A DNA stretch of 64,000 nucleotides from Mayamaea pseudoterrestris (Eukaryota; Bacillariophyta; Bacillariophyceae; Sellaphorales; Sellaphoraceae): positions 1,334,501-1,398,500 of the forward strand of contig BROI01000001.1 in assembly GCA_027923505.1 (NCBI GenBank), given 5' to 3'. Shown here one piece after another: positions 2,085 through 61,377 of this stretch. The position numbers and the translations under genes were made by a program. How positions within the stretch are numbered: position 1 is the stretch's first letter; every line of letters begins with the position of its first letter. Under the pieces are notes generated by a model that made no database searches, was not told where the DNA came from, and was given only the letters and a program-made list of their open reading frames with translations.

Positions 2085-3668
2085 CTAGTAGTCGTACTCG
2101 TCATCGTCGTCAAGATTGCTGCTGCCATTACCAAACAAGCCAGCGACGCAGTCGCCATTGTCCTCCGCCAGCTCCGTCGTTTTGACGGCGCACTCTCGAT
2201 CGCGTCGAGACACCACAACCACATTGGCGCTTTCGTTTTCGTCGTTGCCGTTGCTACCAACTTCGTTGATTGGTTTTTGATGTCGATAGTACCACGAAAG
2301 TTGTTCCGACTCGACCACGTGCTGTTGCTCCACGTGTATCTCCTGCAGCGCCGTCAGCATTGCCCGCAGCTCCAATATATTCTTGGCCTTGCAAAGATTT
2401 TCACGAACATGTGAATGCGACTGCAAGTCGTCGTGCAGTATGCGATGCAAATGCATGCGAATGCACTTGAATCCACTTCCTTGGCCACCAAGTTGTGGTG
2501 GATGAATTTCGCACAGGTCGAGATACTCGCGCGCCAGTGACACGCGGGAGCGGCGAGGTGCTGCCGCAACGTCTGGTGTGAGCGGCGCTTCAAAGAGCGC
2601 CGGATACTCTAAAATGGCTTCGCTCGACATGACGGCGTCGCAATTTGTATACGCGAGACAATCAATGGCATTCTGTCTCGACGCAATGGATCCATTCGCA
2701 ACGATTGGAACGTAGTCACCCAACTCTTGGACGACGGTTCTAATTGCCTCCATGTCGCATGGTCCAACGTGGTGACCCTTGTGATGCCGCGTCCGTCCGT
2801 GAATAATAAGCATGTGCGCCTTTCCCTCGTGGACCAAACGTCGATAGAGCGCGAGACTGGCGGGTAAATCACTCTGCGGTGCGTCGTCGTCTGTCACAGT
2901 AACAGTAGCAGGATTGTCATTGACTGACTCGTCATCGTCAGTGTCTTCATGTGGCTCGTTGCTGACAGTCGTTGCGGCAATTACCTTTCGCTTCCTATGC
3001 CGCGGCAGCAACCGCACCTTTACCGATACTGGAATTTGCAAACGATCCGTCAGCAGTTTAACGAGTCGCACCAAATCATCCGGCTGCTCGAGCAAAAAGG
3101 CGCCATATTTTCCTCGCTTGGCAATGTTCTGCGGACATCCGCAGTTCAAGTCAATGCCGTGCACGAGTCCAGTGTCTTGCAGTAAGAGTGCGGCCTGCAA
3201 GACAAACTGCGGCGCGTGACCTGATCCACACAGTTGCGCAATCAAGGGGCGATCGTAGCAGTCTGGTTGCTGTTGCTGATTTTTACTATTGTCGCTACTT
3301 TCACTATCATTTCCTTGAATTACTGCTTCAAGTTGCTGTATTTTCCGTGGCAAGAATTTGCTTCGATAGTCGGCCGACTCGACGAGTAGCCTCGAGTGAA
3401 TCATTGGCGTGACGGCAATCTGACAGCCGTACTTGCGACAAAGCAGTCGAAAGGGCAAATCGGACTGATCCACCATGGGGGCGAGCATGAATATTGGTGG
3501 TAAAAGATTTGATTGTAGTAATGACGAAGAAGTACATGATGTTTCGGTGCTGCCGCCGTTGCATTCGTATTTTTGGACAAGCTTCCGAAGCCATTGCCGA
3601 TCCACCGGTAATCGAGTAGCTGCCCCTGCGCTTAAAGCTTCATCGCTAGTAGTAGCCGGAGCAGTCAT
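2085..3668 (-). CDS. DUS1: tRNA-dihydrouridine synthase (DUS1-like), left copy
   Basis: This is a single-exon FMN enzyme of the Dus family, which reduces uridine to dihydrouridine in tRNA. The motifs fit the eukaryotic Dus1 (positions 16/17) branch: FMLAPMVDQSDLPFR at the start of the barrel, LNCGCPQNIAKRGKYGAFL around the catalytic Cys, the HGRTRHHKG segment, and VPIVANGSI with a nearby ..DAVMSSEAI FMN-phosphate site. An acidic/Ser insert (EDTDDDESVNDN) splits the barrel. I chose the ATG at 3668 because it aligns with the start of the right copy; an in-frame ATG at 3725 would add 19 residues (546 in total). The C-terminal tail is acidic and of unknown function. It is divergent from the DHHC gene and shares about 300 bp of upstream sequence with it. 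Confidence 0.88.
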   Translation of the reverse strand: MTAPATTSDEALSAGAATRLPVDRQWLRKLVQKYECNGGSTETSCTSSSLLQSNLLPPIFMLAPMVDQSDLPFRLLCRKYGCQIAVTPMIHSRLLVESADYRSKFLPRKIQQLEAVIQGNDSESSDNSKNQQQQPDCYDRPLIAQLCGSGHAPQFVLQAALLLQDTGLVHGIDLNCGCPQNIAKRGKYGAFLLEQPDDLVRLVKLLTDRLQIPVSVKVRLLPRHRKRKVIAATTVSNEPHEDTDDDESVNDNPATVTVTDDDAPQSDLPASLALYRRLVHEGKAHMLIIHGRTRHHKGHHVGPCDMEAIRTVVQELGDYVPIVANGSIASRQNAIDCLAYTNCDAVMSSEAILEYPALFEAPLTPDVAAAPRRSRVSLAREYLDLCEIHPPQLGGQGSGFKCIRMHLHRILHDDLQSHSHVRENLCKAKNILELRAMLTALQEIHVEQQHVVESEQLSWYYRHQKPINEVGSNGNDENESANVVVVSRRDRECAVKTTELAEDNGDCVAGLFGNGSSNLDDDDEYDY

Positions 3669-4003
3669 GTTGATCATGCCGATCGAATGTGGAAAGTAGC
3701 CTTCGTCGAAGAGCTGCAATGGCATGTTGATGAATGGCTGTCACGCTTCAAAGTGTCGCATTAATGTCGTACCATCACTGAAAGAATCGTTACGGTCGGC
3801 CGGCGTGCGCGCTCGCCAATGCGAGGACGTGCCTCGACAAACCACGCATCGTCACCGTGGGTGGAGGCGACAAGCAAGCGTATTTGACCATGGCTACTGC
3901 TGCGAGCGACAAGAGTCTCGTCTATTGAATCGTACATAGCGACGGACTATATATATAGACAGACTGCCGCTGCTGGTGGTGCCGCTAATACTACAATCTC
4001 CTC
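3669..4003. promoter_or_regulatory. Shared divergent promoter region, Dus/DHHC, left copy
   Basis: The 335 bp between the two divergent starts contain a TATA-like run (TATATATATA, 3948-3957) about 50 nt before the DHHC start. A block from about 3726 to 3835 is strongly conserved with the right copy, while short stretches on both sides have insertions and deletions. This placement suggests a bidirectional promoter, which is inferred from position and conservation only. Confidence 0.45.
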
Positions 4004-31207: not shown

Positions 31208-32764
31208 CTAGTAGTCATACTCATCGTCGTCACCAAGATTGTTGCTGCCGTTACCAAACAAGCCAGCGACGCAGTCGCCATTGTCCTCTGCCAGCTCCGT
31301 TGTTTTGACGGCACACTCTCGATCACGTCGAGACACCACGATTACATTAGCGCTGTCAATTTCATCGTTGCTGCCAACTTCACTGATTGGCTTTTGATGT
31401 CGATAGTACCACGAAAGTTGTTCCGACTCGACAGTGTGCTGTTGCGCCACGTGTATCTTTTGCAGCGCCGCTAGCATTGCCCGCAGCTCCATTATATTCC
31501 TGGCCTTGCAAAGATTTTCTCGTACATGTGAATGCGACTGCAAGTCGTCATGCAGTATGCGATGCAAATGCATGCGAATGCACTTGAATCCACTGCCTTG
31601 GCCGCCAAGTTGTGGTGGATGTGTTTCGCACAAGTCGAGATACTCGCGCGCCAGTGACACGCGGGAGCGGCGAGGTGCTGCAACAGCATCCAAAGTGAGC
31701 GGCGCTTCAAAGAGCGCCGGATACTCCAAAATGGCTTCACTCGACATGACGGCGTCGCATTTCGTATATGCGAGACAATCAATGGCATCTTGCCGCGACG
31801 CAATGGATCCATTGGCAACAATTGGAACGTATTCACCCAACTCTTTTACGACGGTTTTGATTGCCTCCATGTCGCATGGTCCAACGTGGTGACCCTTGTG
31901 GTGCCGCGTCCGTCCGTGAATGGTAAGCATGTGGGCCTTTCCCTCATGGACCAAGCGTCGATAGAGCGCGAGGCTGGCAGGTAAATCACTCTGCGGTGCG
32001 TCGTCGTCTGTAATTGTAGCAGGATTGTCATTGACTGACTCGTCATCGTCGTCACTCTCTTCATGTGGCTCGTTGCTGACAGTCGTCGTTGCAATTACCT
32101 TTCGTTTTCTATGCCGCGGCAGCAACCGCACCTTGACTGAAACGGGAATCTGCAAACGATCCGTCAGCAGTTTGACTAGTTGCACCAAATCATCCGGCTG
32201 CTCGAGTAAAAATGCGCCATACTTTCCTCGCTTGGCAATGTTTTGCGGACACCCGCAGTTCAAGTCAATGCCGTGCACAAGTCCCGTGTCTTGCAGCATG
32301 AGGGCCGCCTGCAAGACAAACTGCGGCGCGTGACCTGATCCACACAGTTGCGCAATCAAGGGGCGATCGTAGCAGTCTGGTTGCTGTTGCTGATTTTTAC
32401 TATTGTCGCTACTTTCACTATCATTTCCTTGAATTACTGCTTCAAGTTGCTGTATTTTCCGTGGCAAGAATTTGCTTCGATAGTCGGCCGACTCGACGAG
32501 TAGCCTCGAGTGAATCATTGGCGTGACGGCAATCTGACAGCCGTACTTGCGACAAAGCAGTCGAAAGGGCAAATCGGACTGATCCACCATGGGGGCGAGC
32601 ATGAATATTGGTGGTAAAAGATTTGATTGTAGTAATGACGAAGAAGATGATGAAGAGGCTGTGCTACCGTTACATTCGTACTTTTGCACAAGTTTTCGAA
32701 GCCACTGCCGGTCAACCGGCAGAGGTTCATTACTAGTAGTAGATGTAGCCGTAATGCTGGTCAT
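31208..32764 (-). CDS. DUS1: tRNA-dihydrouridine synthase (DUS1-like), right copy
   Basis: 518 residues in a single exon. The catalytic segment LNCGCPQNIAKRG lies at about residues 168-180. FMLAPMVDQSDLPFR, HGRTRHHKGHHVGPCDMEAI and the Gly/Ser-rich FMN-binding segments are all intact. Differences from the left copy are mostly silent or lie in the acidic insert and C-terminal tail. The N-terminus is shorter because the left copy has extra Thr/Ala codons. A tract at 32307-32646 is identical to the left copy and is treated in the findings. It is divergently transcribed from the DHHC gene. Confidence 0.88.
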   Translation of the reverse strand: MTSITATSTTSNEPLPVDRQWLRKLVQKYECNGSTASSSSSSSLLQSNLLPPIFMLAPMVDQSDLPFRLLCRKYGCQIAVTPMIHSRLLVESADYRSKFLPRKIQQLEAVIQGNDSESSDNSKNQQQQPDCYDRPLIAQLCGSGHAPQFVLQAALMLQDTGLVHGIDLNCGCPQNIAKRGKYGAFLLEQPDDLVQLVKLLTDRLQIPVSVKVRLLPRHRKRKVIATTTVSNEPHEESDDDDESVNDNPATITDDDAPQSDLPASLALYRRLVHEGKAHMLTIHGRTRHHKGHHVGPCDMEAIKTVVKELGEYVPIVANGSIASRQDAIDCLAYTKCDAVMSSEAILEYPALFEAPLTLDAVAAPRRSRVSLAREYLDLCETHPPQLGGQGSGFKCIRMHLHRILHDDLQSHSHVRENLCKARNIMELRAMLAALQKIHVAQQHTVESEQLSWYYRHQKPISEVGSNDEIDSANVIVVSRRDRECAVKTTELAEDNGDCVAGLFGNGSNNLGDDDEYDY

Positions 32765-47729: not shown

Positions 47730-50700
47730 ATGGCAAAGTACGCGTATGCGCCATTGTCAGTGGTGAGTGCTTGATCTTGCATGGATGTAGCCGATGCATG
47801 GCAGAGGGCGAGCAAATTACAAGCAATCATGAATCAAATGCGTCAGTACCTCATGAAGCAAGTCCAACTCTCACAAATATCATTTAATATCATTTATATT
47901 ATTTTTACAGGACGACCGCCGAGGCCGCAGCAGTGGCGGAGCAGCCGCAAACGCTTCCTCATCGCACCACCATCATCATCATTCCGACGTTCAGCAGGAC
48001 CACTTGGTGCAGGAGCGCATGCCCATGTGCATTGGGCTATGCGTCTTGCTGGCCATTGTCTACGTCTTGAGCAAGACGGGAGATGGCGCCACGGCGCTGC
48101 ATCAAAATGTTCGGACTTCCAATGAGCAACTGCAGCAGCACGGTTATCCCAATCAGCAGCAAGCAGGAGCATATGAATCCGTTCCAGCGACCAGTACGGG
48201 AGGAGGAACGACTCTAGCATCTCCAACGACGATTGCAACTACTAGCAGTAAAACTCCTCTTACAGACTGCCCCGTGTGTCCAGCCAATCCCCAGTCTGGC
48301 GATAATCACGCCGACTTGCTCGGCCAGCTGCGCGCCGCGGCATTGGCGAAAACGCCGCCGCACATTATCGAATGCTCCGCCGCTTCCGCCGGTGAATCGC
48401 AAGCCGCCTGCCACTTGCCAGCCGCCACTAGATTCGCTGCATTGAAACAAAAGGGCGCCGTCTTGTGGATGACTGGTTGCAGCGGCGCCGGCAAGACGAC
48501 ACTGGCCACGGCGCTGGAGGAGAAACTAGTCAAACTCTACGGCAAGCACGTGTATCGCTTGGACGGTGACAATCTGCGAACGGGTTTGAACCGTGACTTG
48601 GGCTTCAGCGAAGCGGATCGCGCCGAAAGTGTGCGGCGGACGGGAGAGTTGGCCACGCTCTTTGCCGACGCCGGTGTGGTGACGCTGGTGGGTTTGATTT
48701 CGCCGTATCGAGCGGATCGTGACGCCGTGCGTAAGCGACATGAGGATCAAGGAATTCCGTTTTACGAAGTCTTTTTGGATGTGCCAGTGGAGGAACTCAA
48801 GAAGCGAGACCCCAAGGGACAGTATGCGCGCGTGGAGGCGGGGGAGTTGAAACACTTTACCTGCATTGACGATCCATACGAAGAGCCACTACATCCGGAG
48901 ATTGTATTGAAAACGCACGAGTTGGCGATTGAAGAGTCGGTGGAAATATTGTTTCGGACATTGGAGCGAGATGGAATTTTGATTGGAGCGCCAAAGGTTT
49001 CGCCGCCGGGGTTGCCCAATCCGGACGGTGACGAGATTGTCGACTTGCACGTTCCGGATGCGCTCAAAGAGGAGCGAAGATTGGAAGCTGCCACACTTCC
49101 CAAGGTACTCATTTCCGACATTGAATTGAATTGGTTGCAAACAATTGGAGAAGGCTGGGCGAGTCCGCTCAAGGGTTTCATGCGCGAAGGAACGTTGCTG
49201 GAAACGCTTCACTTTAATTCGATTTTGGTGGATCCGTTCAACTTGACTGGAAACGCTGGCCGCCACACGAGACAGTCCGACTTGACGCACTTTACGCCAC
49301 GCCCGGCACCCGATCGAGTGAGCATGTCGGTGCCAATCACATTGTCGTGCACGTCATACACCAAGGATGCGATTGAATCGTCTGGCAAGCGGGCAGTGGC
49401 GCTGGTGACGCAAATGGGTCAGACGGTGGCCATACTGCGCGATCCGGAGATTTACGCGCACCGCAAGGAGGAGATTGTCACACGCATGTTTGGTGTTATC
49501 GATCCTGGCCATCCCTATATTAAACACATTTACGCTGGAGGCGACTGGTTGATTGGTGGTGAGGTGGAGTTGCTGGATCGTATTCGCTACAATGATGGAC
49601 TCGATCAGTGGCGCAAGTCTGTGACGGAGCTCATGCAGGAGTTTCAGCAAAAGGGAGCCGATACAGTGTACGCCTTTCAGACGCGCAATCCGACTCATGC
49701 TGGCCATGCCTACCTTATGCGATCGGCTGGTGAGGACTTGCGCAAGCAAGGCTACAAAAAGCCAGTGCTCTGGCTCAGTCCACTTGGTGGCTGGACCAAG
49801 GAAGATGACGTTCCACTCGACGTTCGAGTAAGGCAACATGAGCAAGTCTTGGCGGCTGGTACGACGCATCCTGGTGGATTGGATCCAGAGACGACCGTCA
49901 TGGCTATTTGGCCGGCACCAATGGTTTACGCTGGGCCGACGGAAGTGGAGTTTCATGCCAAGTCGCGTCGAGTGGGAGGAGCATCCTACTTTGTCGTTGG
50001 CCGCGATCCAGCAGGCATGAAGGGATCGTTGGAAGCGTGGGCGCATCGCGATGAAGACTTGTACGACGGTGATCACGGACGATACGTGCTACAAAACTCG
50101 CCGGGCATTGGCGACATGCAAATGCTCAGTTTCACCAAGGTCATGTACGATATTACGGACAATGTCATGAAGGAACCCGACGAAAGTAGGCCAGACGACT
50201 TTATTAGTATTTCGGGTACCAAGATGCGAGCGCTGGCTCGACAAGGTGCGACGCCATGCAGCGCCACAAACATTCCGACTGATCTCTTGGGGGCCAACTG
50301 TGTTCCAAGTGGGTTCATGGTTCCCGATGGATGGGGCACTGTCGTGGATTACTACAGTCACATTGAGGATTCAACGCGCTGGATTCCGTGGAGTCGTCCG
50401 CAGATTGAACCTTTGCTCGATGCAGGAGTGACGTACGATGGAAAGTTTGGCACGCAAACGTTCCAGCTAAGGAGCAGCCAGTATGCTAGCTGGTGGCACG
50501 ACCCACCCTTGCGGCCGTCCAAAGCGGATGAGACCATTATCTCGTATGTGTCTGAAATACCAATGTTTTACACGCCCAAGTTGGAAGTGCGAAAGAATTG
50601 GCCCAACAATCCGATTGTTCAAGACATCAACAAGGATGGTTCCAACCGTTATTACACGTATGGTACACCTTTTTTCAATTACGGTCTGATTCCTCAGACA

Positions 50701-51174
50701 TGGGAGGACCCCAACGTTAAGTCGAGTACAGGTTATGGCGGCGACAATGATCCTTTGGACGTCATCGAGCTTGGATCAGCTCAGCTCGCCATTGGAAGTA
50801 TAACGCCTTGTCGCGTCTTGGGTTCACTCGAGCTAATCGATGAGGGCGAGACGGATCACAAGATTCTATGCATAGCGCTAACCGACAAGGATGCATCGTC
50901 AATCAAGTCGATGGATGACCTTGAGCGCGTCAAGCCGGGCCACATGGATAGACTGAGAGATTGGTTGAAGCGATACAAGACTAGCGACGGCAAATTGGAG
51001 AATTCGCTAGCGTCGGAAACTCCCAAGACCGTGGGCGAAGCTCTGGCTGTGATTAACGAAACCCACTTGCGTTGGAGAGCCCTCTGTGGGCATGATGGCA
51101 CCTCGCTCTATTCGCTGACGAGCACGGCGTCCGAATTTTGGCTGGACAGCCCAAACTGCCGAGGGAAGAAGTAA
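47730..51174 (+). CDS. Membrane-anchored APS kinase / ATP sulfurylase / inorganic pyrophosphatase fusion
   Basis: A tiny first exon (47730-47762, MAKYAYAPLSV) is spliced over a 148-nt GT-AG intron to 47911-51174, giving 1098 residues. There is a His/Gln-rich N-terminus, one TM segment (about 50-65, CIGLCVLLAIVYVLS) and a low-complexity linker. APS kinase follows (about 190-380; Walker A GCSGAGKTT at about 200-208; DGDNLRTGLNRDLGFS). Next is ATP sulfurylase (about 400-770; QTRNPTHAGH at about 601, LGGWTKEDDVP, ISGTKMRAL). Last is a family I soluble pyrophosphatase (about 830-1098; NYGLIPQTWEDPN and GYGGDNDPLDVIELG). Together they make PAPS from sulfate and ATP, and hydrolysing the released PPi pulls the unfavourable sulfurylase step forward. 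Fusions of PPase to sulfate-activation enzymes are known in stramenopiles. All three active-site motifs look intact. Confidence 0.9.
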
Positions 51175-51994: not shown

Positions 51995-52676
51995 TTATAT
52001 AAGTGAAAAAATACTTGAAGATTGTCCGAATGTCCTTTGCGTTATAGTACAGTTAGAATTTGCAATCGCTACGAAGTTTTTGCATCAAATGAGGTCCCAA
52101 ATATACTAAGCATTATACCTGCTTTAGTTTACACTTACAAAAGAATGTGTACAGTATATAAGGATTACGTACTAGCAAAGCGGATGCGCTCATTAGCCAT
52201 GGCGCGAAATAGCATCAATAGCAACTACGCGAGTCGATTGCCTGCGTTAATTGTACCAAGATGTATCTTCGTCAGCCAACGATTGGGTGTTTGGTTTGGG
52301 TTTAGCTCGCATGTCTATAGGAGCGCCCGATGGCGACAAGTATTGGATGCTAAGACGTGCGTCACCATAGTATTCTCGTCCGTTCATCTGCATCGCCCGA
52401 GCGGCAGATTCGGCATTACCAAACTCAATAGTTGCACTACCAGAACTTCTGCCATCTCCTTGAACTTGCAAGTTACATGAATTAATTGGTCCAAAAGTGG
52501 AAAAGTAGTCCATCAAGTCTTGCTTTTGCGTTCGCCATGGAAGCCCGCCAATCTGTATCTTTCTGTAAGGTGGTACGACGCGGTCACTCGCTGCTGCTGC
52601 ACCGCCAGTCGGCGCGGCATGATGAGAACCATATCGCTCGTTGCCACTTCGTGAACTAACAACGCTTTGTCTCGGG
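51857..52676. repeat. 820-bp exact tandem duplication, unit 2
   Basis: Second unit. On the plus strand, 51857-51994 repeats the last 46 codons of the pyrophosphatase domain without any upstream coding sequence. On the minus strand the unit supplies the real C-terminus of the RRM gene. Confidence 0.9.
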
Positions 52677-55600
52677 GATGCAGGTCGATTCGATGGCTTT
52701 GCCGAGGAAGTGTCGAACTGGATGCTCAGCGTGCCCGGTCCGAATATGTCGCCGTTCATCATCATTGCGCGCTGTGCTGATTCTGGATCAGCAAATTCCA
52801 GAAGAGCTTTCCCTACTGGTTGGCCATCAGCATGCAGTGGCAGTTCGCAACTGACCAATTCTCCAAAGGTTGAGAATTGCTGATAAACTTCTTCTCGCGA
52901 CATTCTCCAATTCAATCCTGTAACGACAAGTTTAACCGATCCGCCACGTGACGATGCCCGACCTTGTTCAGGTGGCGGTCTGTCGCCAGCTCTCTCTTGC
53001 ATACGGCGCTCTTCTCGTGCAATCTTTTCCTCCAAGAACCTTATCTTTGCCTCCATCTCGGCTTCGAGTTCGGCCTCTTCGCGGGGTTGCGCTTCGGAAC
53101 GTTGATTGTTACGGGCAGGTGTTTCTCTTTCATCTGGTCGCCCTTGCGAAACGAAAAAATCGTCTCTCGTGCTGCCTTTTGACGAAGAAGATGTGGACTG
53201 TCCTTCCGCTGACGGAAGACTGGCTATATACTCTTCTCGTTCTTTCTCCAGTGCCATGTATTTTTCTTTCCACAAGGAGACTTCCTCACTCGTCAACTTT
53301 ACCTTCTCTTCAAGACCTTTATTTTCGCTTTCCTGCTGGTCAATCAAAGCTAGCATATTCTTTCTCTCTTCAAATAAATCCTTTACATCTTCATCGGACT
53401 GGGATGCTTTGGCGGATATACTAGTCAACTCTCGTTTGATATTCGTGTTTTCCTTTTCGAGTGCATCGGCCCGCTTTTGCAGCTTTCTGCGCGCTTCTTC
53501 GAGACCGATGGACTTTTGAAATTCATTCGACGCCACTTCGCTTGAAGACGCCAGCTCAGTCTTTAGTTCTGTATTCTCCTTTCCCAAGGTATCAACACGC
53601 TCTAAAAGTTTTGTCTGATTGTACTGTAACAACTTGAGCTTGTCGTCGATTTCTGATTGTGCTTCTGATGCTGATACGTTAGCAGTCTTTAGTTTACCAT
53701 TCTCGTTCTCAAGCGTCTCGACGCGCTGAAGCAGCTCGTCCCTCTCCGACTCTACCTTTTTGTACTTCTCATCCGATATTACCGTAGCATTCTTGCTGAT
53801 AGACATGCGGTTCTGTAGCTCAGCATTTTTTTTCTCCAGCATCTCCAATCTCGCATCGGCATCCTTTTGCTTCGCAACAATCTCGTTGTATTTCTGATCC
53901 GCAATGGCGGCTGTTTCGTTTGCTTTATCTAGCAAAGATTGCAGATTGAGGTTTTCCTTTTCGAGCGATTCAACTCGTGCGTTCATTTTCTCGCGTAGCG
54001 CCTCTAGTTCCTTGCTTGTAACGCCAGACTGAGAAACAACATCGTTAACTGAAGAAAGTTCTTTGCGAAGGCCTTCGTTTTCCTTTTGCAACGTCTCGGA
54101 TCGACTTGAAAAGCTGTCGCGGTCAACGCTCATCTTATTGTACTTATCCTCCCACTGCGATACCACCACGCTTGTAGCAGATAGTTCTTGGTGTAACGCT
54201 TTATTCTCCTGCTCCAATGTATCCAATCGCGAGCGAAGAGTAACAAGTTCCTGCTTGTCTCCTTCCAAAGCCTTGTAGATTTCGTCCCATTGTGTCACAA
54301 CGTCGTACGCCTCCGATAGTTCCGCCTTTGGTGGCTCTGAATGGGACTCGCTTTCATCGTTTAGTGACACGGAGACAGCCTCCAATTCCTCCGGAACGTC
54401 AGGCTCGGTGGAATTACGAAACTCAATATTATCGCCAGCTAACTCCCCTTGTACCATGCTAGCCGCATCCACGGACGATTCTCGGAGCTGCTGTGGCTCT
54501 TCAACTTTATCAACTACATCCTTGTCGACGTTGGTGGTAATGGTCGATTCCGCACTCTTCAACGGCGCCATATCTGCTGTTTGATCCTTGTCGAAACTAG
54601 ACGAGGACGTTTGCTTCGTGTCTGGCGGCGGCAATTCATACTGCACACTGAGTCGACCGTATCCATAGTAGTCGGATCCATCCATTTTTAATGCCGCGGC
54701 CGCTCCATCGGCGTGCGCAAACTCCATGGACGCTTCGCCCTTGGCCAAACCGTCGCCACCAAGCGTCAATTTGCAGGCGAAAATCTCGCCGCACGAAGCA
54801 AAATGCTGAATCACTTCTTGGTTCGAAAGCTTCCAGGGCAGTCCACGAATATAGATTTTGGTGTCTGACGACGTCTCTGGTTGACGTTTCGATGCAGTGC
54901 GGCTGGAGCGAAAGACTGGCGACGCTTGGTTCAGCCGCGTGACGGTTGGCTTTTCTTTTGCAATATAGTGACCATACTTGATACTTAGTATACCTTCACC
55001 AAAGTAGTCCATGCCATTCGTCTTGACGGCTTGTATTGCCGCTCCAACGTCCCGAAACTCTAATAGCGCCGTGCCCGTCGTTTGTCCGTCGTTTCCTGCC
55101 AAGACTTTGCAAAAGACCAATTGTCCAAAGGAGGAAAAGTGCTGCACAATCTCCTGCTGACTCGCCTTCCACGGCAGTCCGCTGACTTGAATCTTGGTGC
55201 TGATGGTGCTTGTTTCGTCGACTTTGTTTTCGTCATCGTCATGATCGACTGAATCGTTGTTGTTGACCGAGTCGACAAAGAACTTGCTAGGCAATGGGGG
55301 CGGTGGCACAGTGGACGAGTTGTCGTCCACAGACGCGACAGAAGAAAAGTTACTTTCACCAGCACCACTACTACTAGTAACATTCGTCTTGCTTTCTTGT
55401 TGCGGAAACAATACTTGATGCAGCATGTAGTCGGTCCACTCTTGGCCAAAGAGCGACTTGAGCATGGGCTTGGCCGGGTCATTGTTGACGCGATATGTGA
55501 TATAGTCGGCTTGATGGTTGATTGAGTTGGCGCCACCTTCGGCAGCTGTAGCAACCACTATATTATCCTTTTGCTCACTGAGCAGTTGCAAGTAAATGTG

Positions 55601-56482
55601 TAAATGTTCCTCAAAGGCTTGCAGCAGTGGTCCTTGTATGGTTGGCAGTGGATTGTCGTCCTTGTCGCCGTCCTTGCCGCCAAAGCGCGTCCACAAGGCA
55701 TGCTTGGAAACATACGGCAGCACCGCCTCCGGCATGGTGCCACCCCACGGAAACTGCTGATTGACGTGAGTCTCGTGCCAAGATTGAAACTTTCGCGCAT
55801 ACACTTCGTTAGCATCAACATCCAACGCCATTGGCTGCGCGTCCAGTAGAATGAGGTGCTTGTTTCCCGGCAGACTGACAAAGTCGGCGCCCCAGACTGG
55901 TAGATTGGAGTTGGTGTTTGGAAAAATGACCAAGTTGAGCACTTGAATGCCGGCAGTGCTAACGTTAGTTGATAGTGACGTTGACTCTGCAGTTGCAGTT
56001 GTTGTGGAAAAGGGTATCGTTTCAAGCAGCACCATGCGCGCGTAGCGAATTGGAATACTGCTGCTGCCACTACTGCTACTCGACGACGCCTGCAACGCCC
56101 GCGCCGTCATGCGCACCACGTAGTCTTCCTTGGGTGTCTTGGCGGGAACGAGCCGACTGGTGTAGTCGGGATCCAAATCGACGGGTTCCAATCCGGGCGT
56201 TTGCTCCAGCTGCTTCCAAGCGGTTTCGGCAAAGGCAGAGTATGTTCCTGAATAGTAGTTGTTGCTTGATGATGACTTCAATGACGACGATTTTGATGAT
56301 TCAAATGCTGCTCCTTCCGTATTGTGACTCGCAAGAGCCGTTAGCTCTGCTGCACCTTTGCTGGTCCGCCTCCATCCGGTCGAAACATGGAGGCAGCTGC
56401 TGCGACGAGGTGCGACAAAGGCATGCGCCACTTGGGTCCATGGTAGCAGCAGCGCAATTTTCATGGCGTCTACTACTTTCAT
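52247..56482 (-). CDS. Plastid-targeted ferredoxin-dependent bilin reductase fused to four RRMs and a long coiled coil
   Basis: 1411 residues from the ATG at 56482 (alternatives 56464 and 56614) in one uninterrupted frame. The N-terminus reads as a signal peptide ending in AHAFVAP, an ASAFAP-type plastid motif (about residues 19-25). Residues about 85-360 match the HY2/PebA/PebB/PcyA bilin reductase family: LPVWGADFVSLPG..HLILLDAQPM (about 194-218), a KHALWTRF segment (about 260-267), and YRVNNDPAKPMLKSLFGQEWTDYMLHQVLFP (two adjacent blocks, about 330-360). Both acidic positions often used for bilin protonation (Asp200 and Asp335 by my count) are present. RRM1 (about 429-505) and RRM2 (about 541-617) follow, then an acidic linker, a coiled coil of about 430 residues, RRM3 and RRM4. 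All RRMs share a GLPW/GLNW RNP2 variant and appear to be products of internal duplication. Such a fusion is unknown to me. Confidence 0.8.
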   Translation of the reverse strand: MKVVDAMKIALLLPWTQVAHAFVAPRRSSCLHVSTGWRRTSKGAAELTALASHNTEGAAFESSKSSSLKSSSSNNYYSGTYSAFAETAWKQLEQTPGLEPVDLDPDYTSRLVPAKTPKEDYVVRMTARALQASSSSSSGSSSIPIRYARMVLLETIPFSTTTATAESTSLSTNVSTAGIQVLNLVIFPNTNSNLPVWGADFVSLPGNKHLILLDAQPMALDVDANEVYARKFQSWHETHVNQQFPWGGTMPEAVLPYVSKHALWTRFGGKDGDKDDNPLPTIQGPLLQAFEEHLHIYLQLLSEQKDNIVVATAAEGGANSINHQADYITYRVNNDPAKPMLKSLFGQEWTDYMLHQVLFPQQESKTNVTSSSGAGESNFSSVASVDDNSSTVPPPPLPSKFFVDSVNNNDSVDHDDDENKVDETSTISTKIQVSGLPWKASQQEIVQHFSSFGQLVFCKVLAGNDGQTTGTALLEFRDVGAAIQAVKTNGMDYFGEGILSIKYGHYIAKEKPTVTRLNQASPVFRSSRTASKRQPETSSDTKIYIRGLPWKLSNQEVIQHFASCGEIFACKLTLGGDGLAKGEASMEFAHADGAAAALKMDGSDYYGYGRLSVQYELPPPDTKQTSSSSFDKDQTADMAPLKSAESTITTNVDKDVVDKVEEPQQLRESSVDAASMVQGELAGDNIEFRNSTEPDVPEELEAVSVSLNDESESHSEPPKAELSEAYDVVTQWDEIYKALEGDKQELVTLRSRLDTLEQENKALHQELSATSVVVSQWEDKYNKMSVDRDSFSSRSETLQKENEGLRKELSSVNDVVSQSGVTSKELEALREKMNARVESLEKENLNLQSLLDKANETAAIADQKYNEIVAKQKDADARLEMLEKKNAELQNRMSISKNATVISDEKYKKVESERDELLQRVETLENENGKLKTANVSASEAQSEIDDKLKLLQYNQTKLLERVDTLGKENTELKTELASSSEVASNEFQKSIGLEEARRKLQKRADALEKENTNIKRELTSISAKASQSDEDVKDLFEERKNMLALIDQQESENKGLEEKVKLTSEEVSLWKEKYMALEKEREEYIASLPSAEGQSTSSSSKGSTRDDFFVSQGRPDERETPARNNQRSEAQPREEAELEAEMEAKIRFLEEKIAREERRMQERAGDRPPPEQGRASSRGGSVKLVVTGLNWRMSREEVYQQFSTFGELVSCELPLHADGQPVGKALLEFADPESAQRAMMMNGDIFGPGTLSIQFDTSSAKPSNRPASPRQSVVSSRSGNERYGSHHAAPTGGAAAASDRVVPPYRKIQIGGLPWRTQKQDLMDYFSTFGPINSCNLQVQGDGRSSGSATIEFGNAESAARAMQMNGREYYGDARLSIQYLSPSGAPIDMRAKPKPNTQSLADEDTSWYN

Positions 56483-57166
56483 CTTCCTTGCTGTCTTGTC
56501 AAGAAGCAAGCAGAGTATAGTATAATATGCAAGCGTACCGGTATCTCTCTGTTGATTGAATTTTGCGAGTGATGGATGGATCATGGATCCTCGTCGGCGA
56601 GGCATGCGTGTCACACTTCATGTCGTACTGCGATCGACTGACGATGTCATACCGTTACTAACTGTAAACACGGTTCGACGCTAGCAACTCGCTCAAGAGA
56701 TACCGTATATGTGCAAGGCCCTGTACACTCATTGTCGCGACGATGGCTGCGGTAGGTATTTGTGTATAGTGTTGGACTCGACCGTCATTGCTCTAATGAA
56801 TATCCAATTGATCCCGTTGCCTTGTACTAGCGCTGGAGTGCAACGAGTTGTATCAAGACTGATGATTTGAGTAACGCACGAATGGAGGCTATAATCGAAA
56901 AACTGATCCACATGGTTTTGTTGAGTCATGACTTATCTTACTCGCAAAGCACATGGGCTCATCATCACAGCCCCTTGCCAATGCGAAGAATTCGACAGTT
57001 AACCACGGGATTAGTTCTTGTCTTGTTTATGGATGCCATCCTTTATTCCTTCGTACGTTGTTCCTAATCTTCCATGCAGAATTCGCCTCGCCAATAACAA
57101 AGCGCCGGTTCCACTTGCTCTCATAAAATCAGTTTCCCACTTGCACACAATCACATTAAGATCACC
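56483..57166. other. Divergent intergenic region
   Basis: Upstream region of both the bilin reductase-RRM gene (minus strand) and the small Cys protein gene (plus strand). A TATAGTATAATAT run at about 56515-56527 lies some 35-45 nt before the ATG at 56482. No other feature is seen. Confidence 0.4.
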
Positions 57167-57613
57167 ATGAAGACCATCATCTGCAACTTCCTCTTCGCCT
57201 TGACGCTCGCCGCTTCCACAAACGCCGCGCCGGCGCTCCGTGGTCTCGCCCGGAGCTGCAACTCTGAATGCTCCGCCGTCTTTACCACGTGCATTCGCGC
57301 ACCGGGAGCTGACAAGTCCGTTTGCAGGACTGCCAAAAAGGCGTGCCAGCTTGTCTGCAAGACGACGACTGACGTGAGTGTTCCATTGGAGGACGTTGAT
57401 CAAGTCGTCGATGATACCGAGAAGGACGTTGACGAAATCGTCGATGAGGTTGAGGATGTTGTTGATGAGGTCGTCGATGTTCCAAAGGTCGAATCCAAGG
57501 GCAAGTGCGTCAGCACGTGCGCCAAAGTCAAGAACGCTTGCATGAAGGCGGCTACTAGTAAGGAGAAGAAGGAGTGCATGCCAATCTTCAAGACCTGCAA
57601 GGAGGCATGTTAA
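57167..57613 (+). CDS. Secreted protein with two Cys modules joined by an acidic Val/Asp linker
   Basis: 148 residues in a single exon. Signal peptide MKTIICNFLFALTLAASTNA. Module 1 (about residues 31-64) and module 2 (about 115-148) share the spacing C-x3-C-x6-C-x9/10-C-x6-C-x3-C, so the protein is an internal duplication. Between them lies an acidic linker of about 45 residues, built from repeated (D/E)(V/I)VD(D/E)V units, that could be helical or bind cations. CX3C...CX3C hairpins of this type are disulfide-bonded in other proteins. No family is recognised. A cell-wall or extracellular role is only a guess. Confidence 0.7.
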   Translation: MKTIICNFLFALTLAASTNAAPALRGLARSCNSECSAVFTTCIRAPGADKSVCRTAKKACQLVCKTTTDVSVPLEDVDQVVDDTEKDVDEIVDEVEDVVDEVVDVPKVESKGKCVSTCAKVKNACMKAATSKEKKECMPIFKTCKEAC

Positions 57614-58146: not shown

Positions 58147-61100
58147 ATGCGGCGAAACGATTACCACGATGAGCATGATGCTGCGGAAGGCACGCCTCTT
58201 CTCCTGCAATCAATATCCGTTTCAAAGCTTCCCCTTCATTTCCACCAAAAGCATGCAACGATGAAACGGCCGTCGCATTCTTGTCGTTCAGCAGCAGGAC
58301 TGACTGCTAGCCTGATACTCGTTGTTGCCATGTTGCTCATGGTGGTTCCATTCTTGACGCAACATGGTAACTCCATGTCGGCATCCGCAGTCATGGATAT
58401 TGTACAACCTGGAATTTATCATTTAGAACCAATCGAAACAAAAGATACGACCAATCAAACAAACAATGAACAGCCGCAGCAGAAGCCACGAGAAGCGAAT
58501 GTGACAGTCGAGGAAGAGAAAACTCCAGTCGCGAATGCTTCAGCTGCAGCCGATATTCCAAACGATCAAGCAGACAACGACGGAGGCGATGAGCAAGAGC
58601 AGCAAACCAAAGATACTACAGTACCCAAGACGAGCCTCAAGTTTCCAGTACCCCTTTCACCGCTCGTGAGACCTAACAATTTGCCGCCGACGTTCATGAA
58701 TGAAACTGTGGACGTTGCGGAGGATTCTGGAGCAGACGAACATGTTACGGTGATTGCCACTCCCACCGTTACGCAGGCTCCTACCGCCGCTCCGAGTAAG
58801 TCCATAGCACCAGTTCCTACTTCAAACCAAGACGAGTCTAAAAATATTGGCCAGGAAGAACAAGATGAGGTAACCGATGATGAGGAGGAAGAAACATTCG
58901 CCGAGCTAGCAGTTCGACTCCTTCCGCTCTACTACCAGCGAATGCTTGCCACGCTTGACGCGCTCACACCCACGGTCCAGCCAGGCCAAGTCTACGTTTC
59001 GCGCAAGGCAATACTCAAGGTTCGAGACTTGTTGGACGTATTTGCTCCCATTTATCCGAATCGCAAGATGGAAGTGCATGATGACGTTGCTGTAGCGCAG
59101 ACGCAGCGCCAGCAAACGTCATTTGACCATGCTGCGATTCACGAGGAGCAAGAGAATGCGAGATACGATCATCGCCGGCATCATCATCACCACCACCACA
59201 ATGCTCGACGTCACGACGGGGAAAGCAAACATCCCCATCACCACCATGATCATCATCGCGTCCTTTCATCCAAGCACAAGCATGACAAGAACAAGCACCA
59301 TCATCATCACTCCGACAGTAGCAAGACAGACTCACGCCATGCGGACAAGACTGACCCTTGGTGGGAACTCCGGCGTTTGCTCGACGGTGGATACGAAACG
59401 ATTGGTACATTTTTGGATCTGGACCACTCGCGCGTCAAATACACGACCAAAATGGAAACCAAGCATCGCGACAAAGTCTTGGATTGGCTCGAAGAGTTTC
59501 GCAAGTACGCCTTTACGCACGACGTGTTGAGCATGTTTCAGCCACCCCCAAGTCACTTTGGAACCTACGAACACTACAAGGAGTCGCACTTGTTTTGGGG
59601 CAGCGCCAAGGAAACCAAGCGTCCCAGTCCCGACGAACCGGCAGCAGCGGTGCTGCGACGACTTTTGAAACATCAAGCCAAGGCTGCTGCAAAGTACTTG
59701 GATGTGTCGCTTGACTTTCGTACCGTCATGGAAAAGAAGCGACACGAGGAATATCACAATCTGCGCAAGGTGCTGCGATCCATGGTGGATGAGTTTGAAA
59801 TTATGGGCGACGTCATTGATCCGTATGGAATATTGTCAGAGGAAGTAAGCGTGCTAAAGAGGGCGAGGAGCAGTCTCGGAGATTTGAACGACGATTACAC
59901 GGCGTTTAGCATTTACGACGGCGGTGATGGACATCGACGCAGGAAACATGGACGAGAGGATAGCATCCACGATAAGTGGCTTGACTTTAAGAAGTGGGCG
60001 GTCCAAAAGGGAGGGCTCAAGGACACACTGAAAAGCTTGGAAGAAAAACTTGACGAAGCCAAGTAAGTGCGGAATCCATCTACATCACAATAGTTATTCA
60101 ACAACGCAACGCACGTACTAACGATAATCAACACTTCATTACAATCATTATTTCGTTTTTGTAGTGAAATGTCTACTCTTTCGTTGACAGGTTTTCTCGA
60201 ATCTGTAAAGCGCCGACCTACTCATCACATTGTGATCGGAAACGGAGCTGGAGATGCCGACTCCATCGTTAGCGCCGTAACACTGGCTTATATTGAATCG
60301 TTGGGAAAGAATTCGGTCGTCAAGACTCCCATTGTATCCGTTTCAAGACGGGCGCTTGAAAGACAACGACCTGAGGTGAAGCTGCTCTTTCAGCTTGCTG
60401 AAGTTTCGGTCGACTCTTTGATATGCACCGACGATTACTTGATGCAGCAGAGGGATATGAGCGACTACGATGTCACGCTTGTGGACCACAACGCCATTGA
60501 ATCAACATTCCAAGACAGAGGCTGGACAGTGCGGGAGATTGTTGATCACCACAAAGATCAAGGCTTGTACCGCACAACAACCTGCTGCGGCTCGAACCGC
60601 ACCATCGCCTTTGCCCATGGCAAGCCCACCGCCGTGTCAACGTGCGTTCTGGTCTTTGAGCGCATGCAAAAACTAGCGAAGGAGCCGTATCCATCCTCGG
60701 TGGGGCTCTTGCTCCTTGGAGTCATATTGCTGGACTCGCTCAACTTGTCGACTGACACCCGGCAAGTTTCGCGCCGCGACAAGGATGCAGTTAGCAATTT
60801 ACAAAAGAGCGTTGACTGGGAGAGCTTGCCAGAGTCGACGAAGCGAAGGCTGGTCATGATAAATTCTACCCAGCCTGACCTGACGACTCTTTTTCGCGTG
60901 TTGCAATCGGCCCGATATGACCCAGAGTTTTGGGATGCATTGTCCGTCAACGAGGCGCTCGACTACGATTTCAAAGAGTACTCGTACGGCAGCGGCTCCT
61001 TTGGAGTATCAACCATTCTCGTGCCATTGAACCGGTTTTTGACCAAGCCTTATCTGGAGGAAAACATTCTTGCATTCATGGCGGCAGTCAACACTGACTT

Positions 61101-61377
61101 CTTGGCGATTATGCTCGCAAACGAATCGGGAACGGGCAGCGAGCAGCGACGCCAGCTCATGCTATGTGGTACAAACTACTTTCCCATGCACGATCTTGTC
61201 AATTTCTTGACGAGCGATCAGTACAAGGGCGAGCCATTGCAACTAAAAGAGATCCCTCACACCCGCTACAGTTCCATCCTGACGATGCGATTCTTTGACC
61301 AAGGCAATGTACTGAGCAGTCGCAAGCAAATTGGTCCCATTTTGGTGCAGTTCTTTGAGGAGTTTTGGCAGGCGTAA
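58147..61377 (+). CDS. Type II membrane protein: His-rich, CHAD-like region spliced to DHH exopolyphosphatase
   Basis: Exons 58147-60062 and 60165-61377 give 1042 residues. The 102-nt intron has GTAAGT, TTTTGTAG and a perfect TACTAAC branch point (60116-60122), and joins the frames as ..EA-N-E-MSTLSLTG. Exon 1 encodes a cytosolic N-terminus, one TM (about 48-66, SLILVVAMLLMVVPFL), an acidic linker, a His-rich stretch (about 338-390, runs of 4-7 His) and a helical region. That region has VYVSRKAILKVRDLLDVF and EEYHNLRKVLRSMVDEFE, each aligning with the H-x3-R-x3-(R/K)-x-x-R helices of CHAD domains, and ends with LKRARSSLGDLNDDYTAF. Exon 2 is a DHH-family exopolyphosphatase (PPX1/prune type): NGAGDADSIVSA, VDHN, IVDHHKDQG. 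Without splicing, exon 1 stops at once (AAG TAA) and 60169 could start a separate PPX protein of 402 residues. Confidence 0.72.
60063..60164 (+). other. Spliceosomal intron joining the two halves of the exopolyphosphatase fusion gene
   Basis: 102 nt, GTAAGT donor at 60063, TACTAAC at 60116-60122 and a pyrimidine-rich TTTCGTTTTTGTAG acceptor ending at 60164. Phase 2. Splicing restores frame exactly, which would be unlikely by chance together with all three signals. Confidence 0.75.

Follow-up and report, generated by a model that had tools for sequence, protein, structure and literature searches.

A computationally supported fusion of a membrane-anchored, divergent CHAD domain with a PPX1-type phosphatase in the diatom Mayamaea pseudoterrestris

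In yeast, the VTC complex feeds polyphosphate into the vacuole and the lumenal enzymes Ppn1 and Ppn2 free phosphate from it (excerpt of PMC12668673). The CHAD domain is a second element that has been connected with polyphosphate; in ygiF it stimulates the enzyme to which it is fused, processivity has been speculated for fused polyphosphate enzymes, and His253, Arg256 and Arg260 are the CHAD residues that were mutated in the Chlorobium protein (excerpt of PMC6537752). The same excerpt gives a 2019 count of only 10 eukaryotic CHAD proteins, of which the plant one that was studied looked bacterially transferred. The recovery of phosphate from stored polyphosphate seems little worked out in diatoms, and exopolyphosphatase has 0 occurrences in the available part of a paper on phosphate in Phaeodactylum (PMC7283521).

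Here we analyze a gene of Mayamaea pseudoterrestris that would be a named candidate for this step. It lies in a stretch of 64,000 nucleotides (contig BROI01000001.1, positions 1,334,501 to 1,398,500), referred to as the window, and comprises two exons with the ATG at 58147 that together encode 1042 residues (Table 1). A membrane anchor, CHAD and DHH/DHHA2 are known parts, though their combination is apparently undescribed. No CHAD-DHH fusion in diatoms was described in the open literature searched, and the database names of such proteins, among them exopolyphosphatase, CHAD domain-containing protein and hypothetical protein, seem to have been assigned automatically.

Table 1. Positions of the gene's features in the window, with the basis of each assignment.
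Feature	Position	Strand	Basis or remark
Exon 1: predicted cytosolic tail, TM helix, linker, predicted CHAD	58147..60062	+	covers residues 1-638 and two bases of codon 639
Acidic di-leucine motif EGTPLL, residues 14-19	58186..58203	+	motif match
Single TM helix, about residues 49-71, predicted type II signal anchor	58291..58359	+	hydropathy, flanking charge
Acidic low-complexity linker, four N-glycosylation sequons (residues 103, 118, 130, 185)	58360..58887	+	
Predicted CHAD bundle 1, residues 251-457, with the His-rich loop inserted	58897..59517	+	AlphaFold, Foldseek
His-rich loop, mostly disordered, residues 308-399, pLDDT mostly <50	59068..59343	+	AlphaFold model
Predicted CHAD bundle 2, residues 499-637, invariant H537, R540, K541, R544	59641..60057	+	AlphaFold, Foldseek, alignment
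Putative intron, 102 nt, phase 2, in-frame TAA directly past the donor	60063..60164	+	splice-signal reading
Exon 2: PPX1-type exopolyphosphatase (predicted), stop included	60165..61377	+	ORF and domain matches
DHH domain PF01368	60229..60720	+	Pfam, 28.7 bits over 28.1
GNGAGDADS	60238-60264	+	DHH motif
VDHN	60481-60492	+	DHH motif
VDHH	60541-60552	+	DHH motif
ILLDS	60724-60738	+	DHH motif just beyond the Pfam edge
DHHA2 domain PF02833	60934..61350	+	Pfam, 48.9 bits over 27
SSRKQIGP motif	61315-61338	+	within DHHA2

The two halves of the protein

The sequence-only reading had recognized CHAD-like helices in the exon 1 product, and both relatives and the predicted fold bear this out. The proposed HMM comparison gave a divided answer: the window protein has no match to the Pfam CHAD model (PF05235) at E values up to 5 and does not reach its gathering score, whereas the relatives P0002 (50% identity over residues 405-638; 32.0 bits over the 25.6-bit cut-off), P0006 and P0010 pass. 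In a set of 21 proteins, seven reach E 1e-3 for CHAD. The AlphaFold model of residues 240-638, made with 28 relatives, has a pLDDT of 79.6 (at least 90 in 216 of the 399 residues) and predicts eight long helices (alignment numbering 12-31, 40-59, 165-188 and 195-218, then 260-282, 291-318, 325-350 and 355-380) arranged as two four-helix bundles, the architecture for which a structure prediction had been suggested, rather than a first half lacking a CHAD-like fold. When this model was compared with the PDB by Foldseek, the top five matches were all CHAD chains (6qva, 3e0s_A, 3e0s_B, 6qv5, 6qv7), with probabilities of 0.97-1.00 and target TM scores of 0.49-0.54 at weak E values (0.033-0.38). The model of the relative P0039 (pLDDT 78.5) matched CHAD 6qva at E 4.5e-4, and the five CHAD chains took ranks 23-27; its pTM of 0.53 makes the placement of its domains uncertain.

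Searches of PDB sequences gave no match at E up to 1 with a 21-sequence profile of the CHAD half, and a best E of 0.069, taken as chance, with exon 1. Comparison with a profile of 13 bacterial CHADs (ygiF and the 12 of 14 loci that were long enough) was weak, at 52% probability, and aligned YHNLRK to the second-bundle HxxR; a plasmid search for diverse bacterial CHADs yielded nine records, all enterobacterial by name, which were left out of the profile. Residues H537, R540, K541 and R544 of bundle 2 are invariant in 29/29 aligned sequences. From residue spacing, we take the HxxRxxxR pattern as the probable equivalent of His253/Arg256/Arg260 in the Chlorobium CHAD. Opposite the HxxRxxxR polyphosphate contacts, bundle 1 presents Tyr, Arg and Leu in a low-confidence extension of the alignment. 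A divergent CHAD fold is well supported for the exon 1 half by these models, and we predict that it likely binds polyphosphate. Elsewhere in the genome, the one six-frame CHAD match, on contig C14 at 23.1 bits (below the 25.6 cut-off), was judged spurious; the ORF beneath it resembles a CDC5-type Myb protein.

The runs of His to which attention had been drawn are present, with 25 His within residues 330-410, and the His-rich loop lies between helices of bundle 1, but a role for them in polyphosphate binding is unsupported because the runs are not conserved. Among the 39 of 44 proteins that could be parsed, the window protein included, it alone has a run of at least four His in this loop; P0018 has a run of three, and in 11 fused relatives the loop is 10-16 residues long and has no His. 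The unparsed P0002, the nearest relative found for the CHAD half, also has a run of three. We rejected the stretch as a conserved polyphosphate-binding part on the basis of the 39 parsed proteins, and the His-rich loop is a lineage feature.

The identification of the exon 2 product as a DHH/PPX1 enzyme holds, as both of its domains exceed the Pfam cut-offs. The DxD, DHN, DHH, late D and RK motifs of the active site are all in the window protein and the same residues are invariant in 17/17 fused relatives, which points to a PPX1-type DHH/DHHA2 phosphatase with its active-site motifs intact. Pfam matched neither a TTM (CYTH) catalytic domain in either half nor, in the window protein, a metallophosphatase domain, the domain that defines Ppn1. 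Yeast PPX1 is the sole PDB sequence matched at E 1e-3 (E 1e-5), and the GN..DxDS motif follows PPX1; by Foldseek, the P0039 model has PPX1 2qb7 first (E 5e-20, TM 0.76), nearer than the best pyrophosphatase (1.5e-12). These matches make it unlikely that pyrophosphate, short chains or nucleotides are the enzyme's main substrates while the CHAD is only a tether to polyphosphate granules, an alternative suggested by the family II pyrophosphatases among DHH/DHHA2 enzymes and by the location of bacterial CHAD proteins on granules (excerpt of PMC6537752). The NCBIfam models of those pyrophosphatases do match, but weakly and far from their cut-offs, the best reaching 43.9 of the 283 bits set for the family II equivalog.

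Membrane anchor and predicted location

The transmembrane segment claimed in the upstream half is found by hydropathy. In the window protein the net charge is +3 over the 15 residues before the helix and -1 over the 15 after it, and no sequon precedes the helix; because the pre-helix side is the more positive and the sequons all lie beyond the helix, the enzyme is predicted to be lumenal. A survey of 33 of 44 CHAD proteins, the window protein among them (the other 11, without a Met start or a TM helix, were left out), found the pre-helix side more positive in 30, equal in two and less positive in one. A di-leucine motif of the form [DE]xxxL[LIM] stands before the TM helix in 27 of the 33, against 3.69 expected from shuffled tails, and within the first 60 residues in 23, against 2.29 expected, both expectations coming from shuffling that ignores kinship. 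The form E-x-[ST]-x-L-L accounts for 17 of the 27 motif-bearing proteins, and six of the 33 lack the di-leucine motif.

Sorting motifs of this class have the form [D/E]XXXL[L/I] (excerpt of PMC9964374), which the window protein shows as EGTPLL together with its TM helix, on a tail predicted to be cytosolic from charge only. Its letters are identical to those of a motif reported to send a diatom protein to the vacuole, C-terminal there and N-terminal here (PMC11085791), and the EASPLL of P0025 corresponds to the one noted for diatom TPCL. Of the acidocalcisome, the vacuole and the cell surface, which had all been offered as locations, the motif points to the vacuole membrane as the candidate. 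The identity of EGTPLL and the EASPLL match render doubtful a fused polyphosphatase in the endoplasmic reticulum, the plasma membrane, the cell surface or acidocalcisome-like vesicles, even though di-leucine motifs can also serve endocytosis or endosomes. Support for such a location elsewhere also comes from Phaeodactylum, where PtVtc1 and PtVtc4 gave endomembrane rather than vacuolar signals (excerpt of PMC7283521). We acknowledge a gap in the vacuolar reading, since the phosphate store in the Phaeodactylum vacuole could not be confirmed and only PtVtc2 of the four Vtc subunits was at the vacuole membrane (same excerpt).

Gene structure and fused relatives

The claim that a putative 102-nt intron would join two long ORFs exactly in frame is confirmed from the sequence, since its removal gives a phase 2 junction and a product of 1042 residues. 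The predicted intron starts with GTAAGT, has TACTAAC inside and ends in TTTTGTAG; without splicing, the frame reads AAG-TAA at 60061-60066 and stops immediately, with a second ORF from 60169. Over both strands of the window, a GTAAGT with TACTAAC 20-120 nt after it is seen a single time, where 100 dinucleotide shuffles gave 0.02 on average, and a looser intron pattern shows no excess in the window (1 observed against a mean of 1.9 in 60 shuffles). In the genome (30.6 Mb, 41 contigs) the gene appears to be single copy, because two protein pieces of exon 1 were each found at one place.

A protein search with residues 405-638 returned 27 proteins, the window protein itself among them, and a search with the DHH half restricted to fused length returned 25; the DHH half alone gave 184 matches, 120 of them listed. 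The 17 fused relatives that were aligned all carry DHH and DHHA2, and 10 of them have CHAD at E 1e-3; P0042 and P0044 among these chains look N-terminally cut. Both halves are also present in P0040, a transcript-derived ORF, and the 609 residues of P0030 include CHAD bundle 2 as well as the enzyme; its contig, which may be genomic or RNA-derived, has 1890 bases, and the 60 spare ones are too few for an intron of about 100 bases. Named sources of the CHAD half are Thalassiosira profunda, Cyclotella atomus, Thalassiosira sp. AJA248-18, Stephanodiscus triporus and Amphora coffeaeformis, together with a CCRYP entry that we take to be Cyclotella cryptica; the four named source species that were looked up are all Bacillariophyta.

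Many automatic predictions list the halves apart. Among 24 CHAD-only predictions the last residue is E in 17, Q in four, R in two and L in one, and the window's own would be K; endings in E, Q or K are as expected for frames that run into an xA/GTAAGT donor, which would mostly give GAG, CAG or AAG and then TAA. CHAD-only and DHH-only predictions pair by equal-sized contigs and source (3840 ena, 4268 jgi, 82949 jgi), which suggests shared contigs. P0023 and P0024 have no DHH half as annotated, which counts against the fusion. The intron seems common to the relatives.

DHHA2 is matched at two loci of the genome: one is the window gene, the other a stand-alone ORF of 477 residues (locus L003 on contig C13). 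This ORF, at 511-1944 of L003, is PPX1-like, and its N-terminal extension may be a targeting signal. Of 146 DHH sequences, 137 entered a tree (nine without the motif used for trimming were dropped) that was rooted by midpoint only and divides into a window-gene clade of 83 sequences, of which 22 are visibly fused, and a clade of 54 with the stand-alone copy, of which none is, with branch supports of 0.86 and 0.935. Many unfused members of the window-gene clade may be exon fragments of split genes, since 47 of these 61 have fewer than 45 residues ahead of the DHH motif; in the other clade this holds for 18 of the 53 measured.

By computation through its relatives, 58147-61377 is strongly supported as one fused gene, in agreement with the initial view of a single gene misread as two. 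The intron might also act as a switch, in which the spliced mRNA gives a membrane-bound processive polyphosphatase, the mRNA that retains the intron a CHAD-only membrane tether without cutting, while a soluble phosphatase is read from the ATG of exon 2 in a short transcript; we regard this as improbable, though if true it would mean that one diatom gene sets polyphosphate storage against release. Very improbable is a pair of separate genes side by side, one for a membrane CHAD protein and the other for a soluble exopolyphosphatase from the ATG at 60169, to which the stop in the unspliced frame, the separately listed halves and the start at the DHH half of P0114, a transcript ORF within the fused clade, would lend themselves, but against which stand the fused relatives, P0030 and the transcript ORF P0040 included, the exact and in-phase intron signals, and the E or Q endings of 21 of the 24 CHAD-only predictions, as expected for a frame running into a GTAA donor.

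Elsewhere in the window, a Cys-rich ORF of 148 residues with a hydrophobic N-terminus (57167-57613, +) lies directly upstream of the fusion gene. An ORF of 1455 residues at 52247-56614 (-) pairs a ferredoxin-dependent bilin reductase (PF05996, residues 222-404, E 9.9e-35) with four RNA-recognition motif stretches and coiled-coil-like parts, an odd combination of pigment enzyme and RNA binding. The 1056-residue ORF at 48004-51174 (+) consists of APS kinase, ATP sulfurylase and inorganic pyrophosphatase, a triple fusion known in algae, and there are two dihydrouridine synthase genes, at 2085-3722 (-) and 31211-32764 (-).

Proposed function and comparison with known systems

Computation places in this apparently single-copy diatom gene the two domains, intact active-site motifs and a recurrent sorting motif, and we consider it probable that its product is a type II protein of the tonoplast, with a lumenal CHAD that would bind polyphosphate and deliver it to the fused phosphatase. 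The short cytosolic tail, with its di-leucine sorting signal, would direct the protein to the vacuole membrane, and the TM helix and long flexible linker would lead to the CHAD and the PPX1-type DHH/DHHA2 exopolyphosphatase on the lumenal side. Polyphosphate made by the VTC complex would be bound by the CHAD, which would hold the chain near the membrane and pass its end to the phosphatase for hydrolysis, and the phosphate freed in the lumen would be available for export. VTC domain matches occur in the genome at two loci, both across stop codons that may be introns. These VTC polyphosphate polymerase matches (L005 and L006; C31 125816-126697, +, and 177785-178666, -) have near-equal scores; they are separated by about 51 kb and point in opposite directions, an arrangement like that of an inverted duplication. 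The relatives of the window gene would constitute a recurrent eukaryotic CHAD family, and the CHAD-DHH fusion would be an independent case for the idea that CHAD gives processivity (excerpt of PMC6537752).

The enzyme half resembles yeast PPX1 (2qb6, 2qb7) in its DHH/DHHA2 fold and active-site motifs, though PPX1 is cytosolic according to its PDB entry whereas the window protein combines its enzyme with a CHAD and, at the other end, with a di-leucine motif and a membrane anchor. With the CHADs of Chlorobium (6qva, 3e0s) and Ricinus (6qv5) the other half shares two predicted four-helix bundles and the retained basic residues of bundle 2, but its sequence is divergent, its bundle 1 contacts are apparently partly replaced and it is fused, in a eukaryote, to a DHH enzyme. 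The ygiF-type TTM-CHAD proteins likewise fuse a polyphosphate-cutting enzyme to a CHAD (excerpt of PMC6537752); here, in contrast, the enzyme is DHH and not TTM, the domain order is opposite and a membrane anchor is present. The likeness to the yeast vacuolar Ppn1 and Ppn2 lies in the proposed job, that of a polyphosphatase in the vacuole lumen (excerpt of PMC12668673), which would here be carried out by a protein of a different family, one without the metallophosphatase domain.
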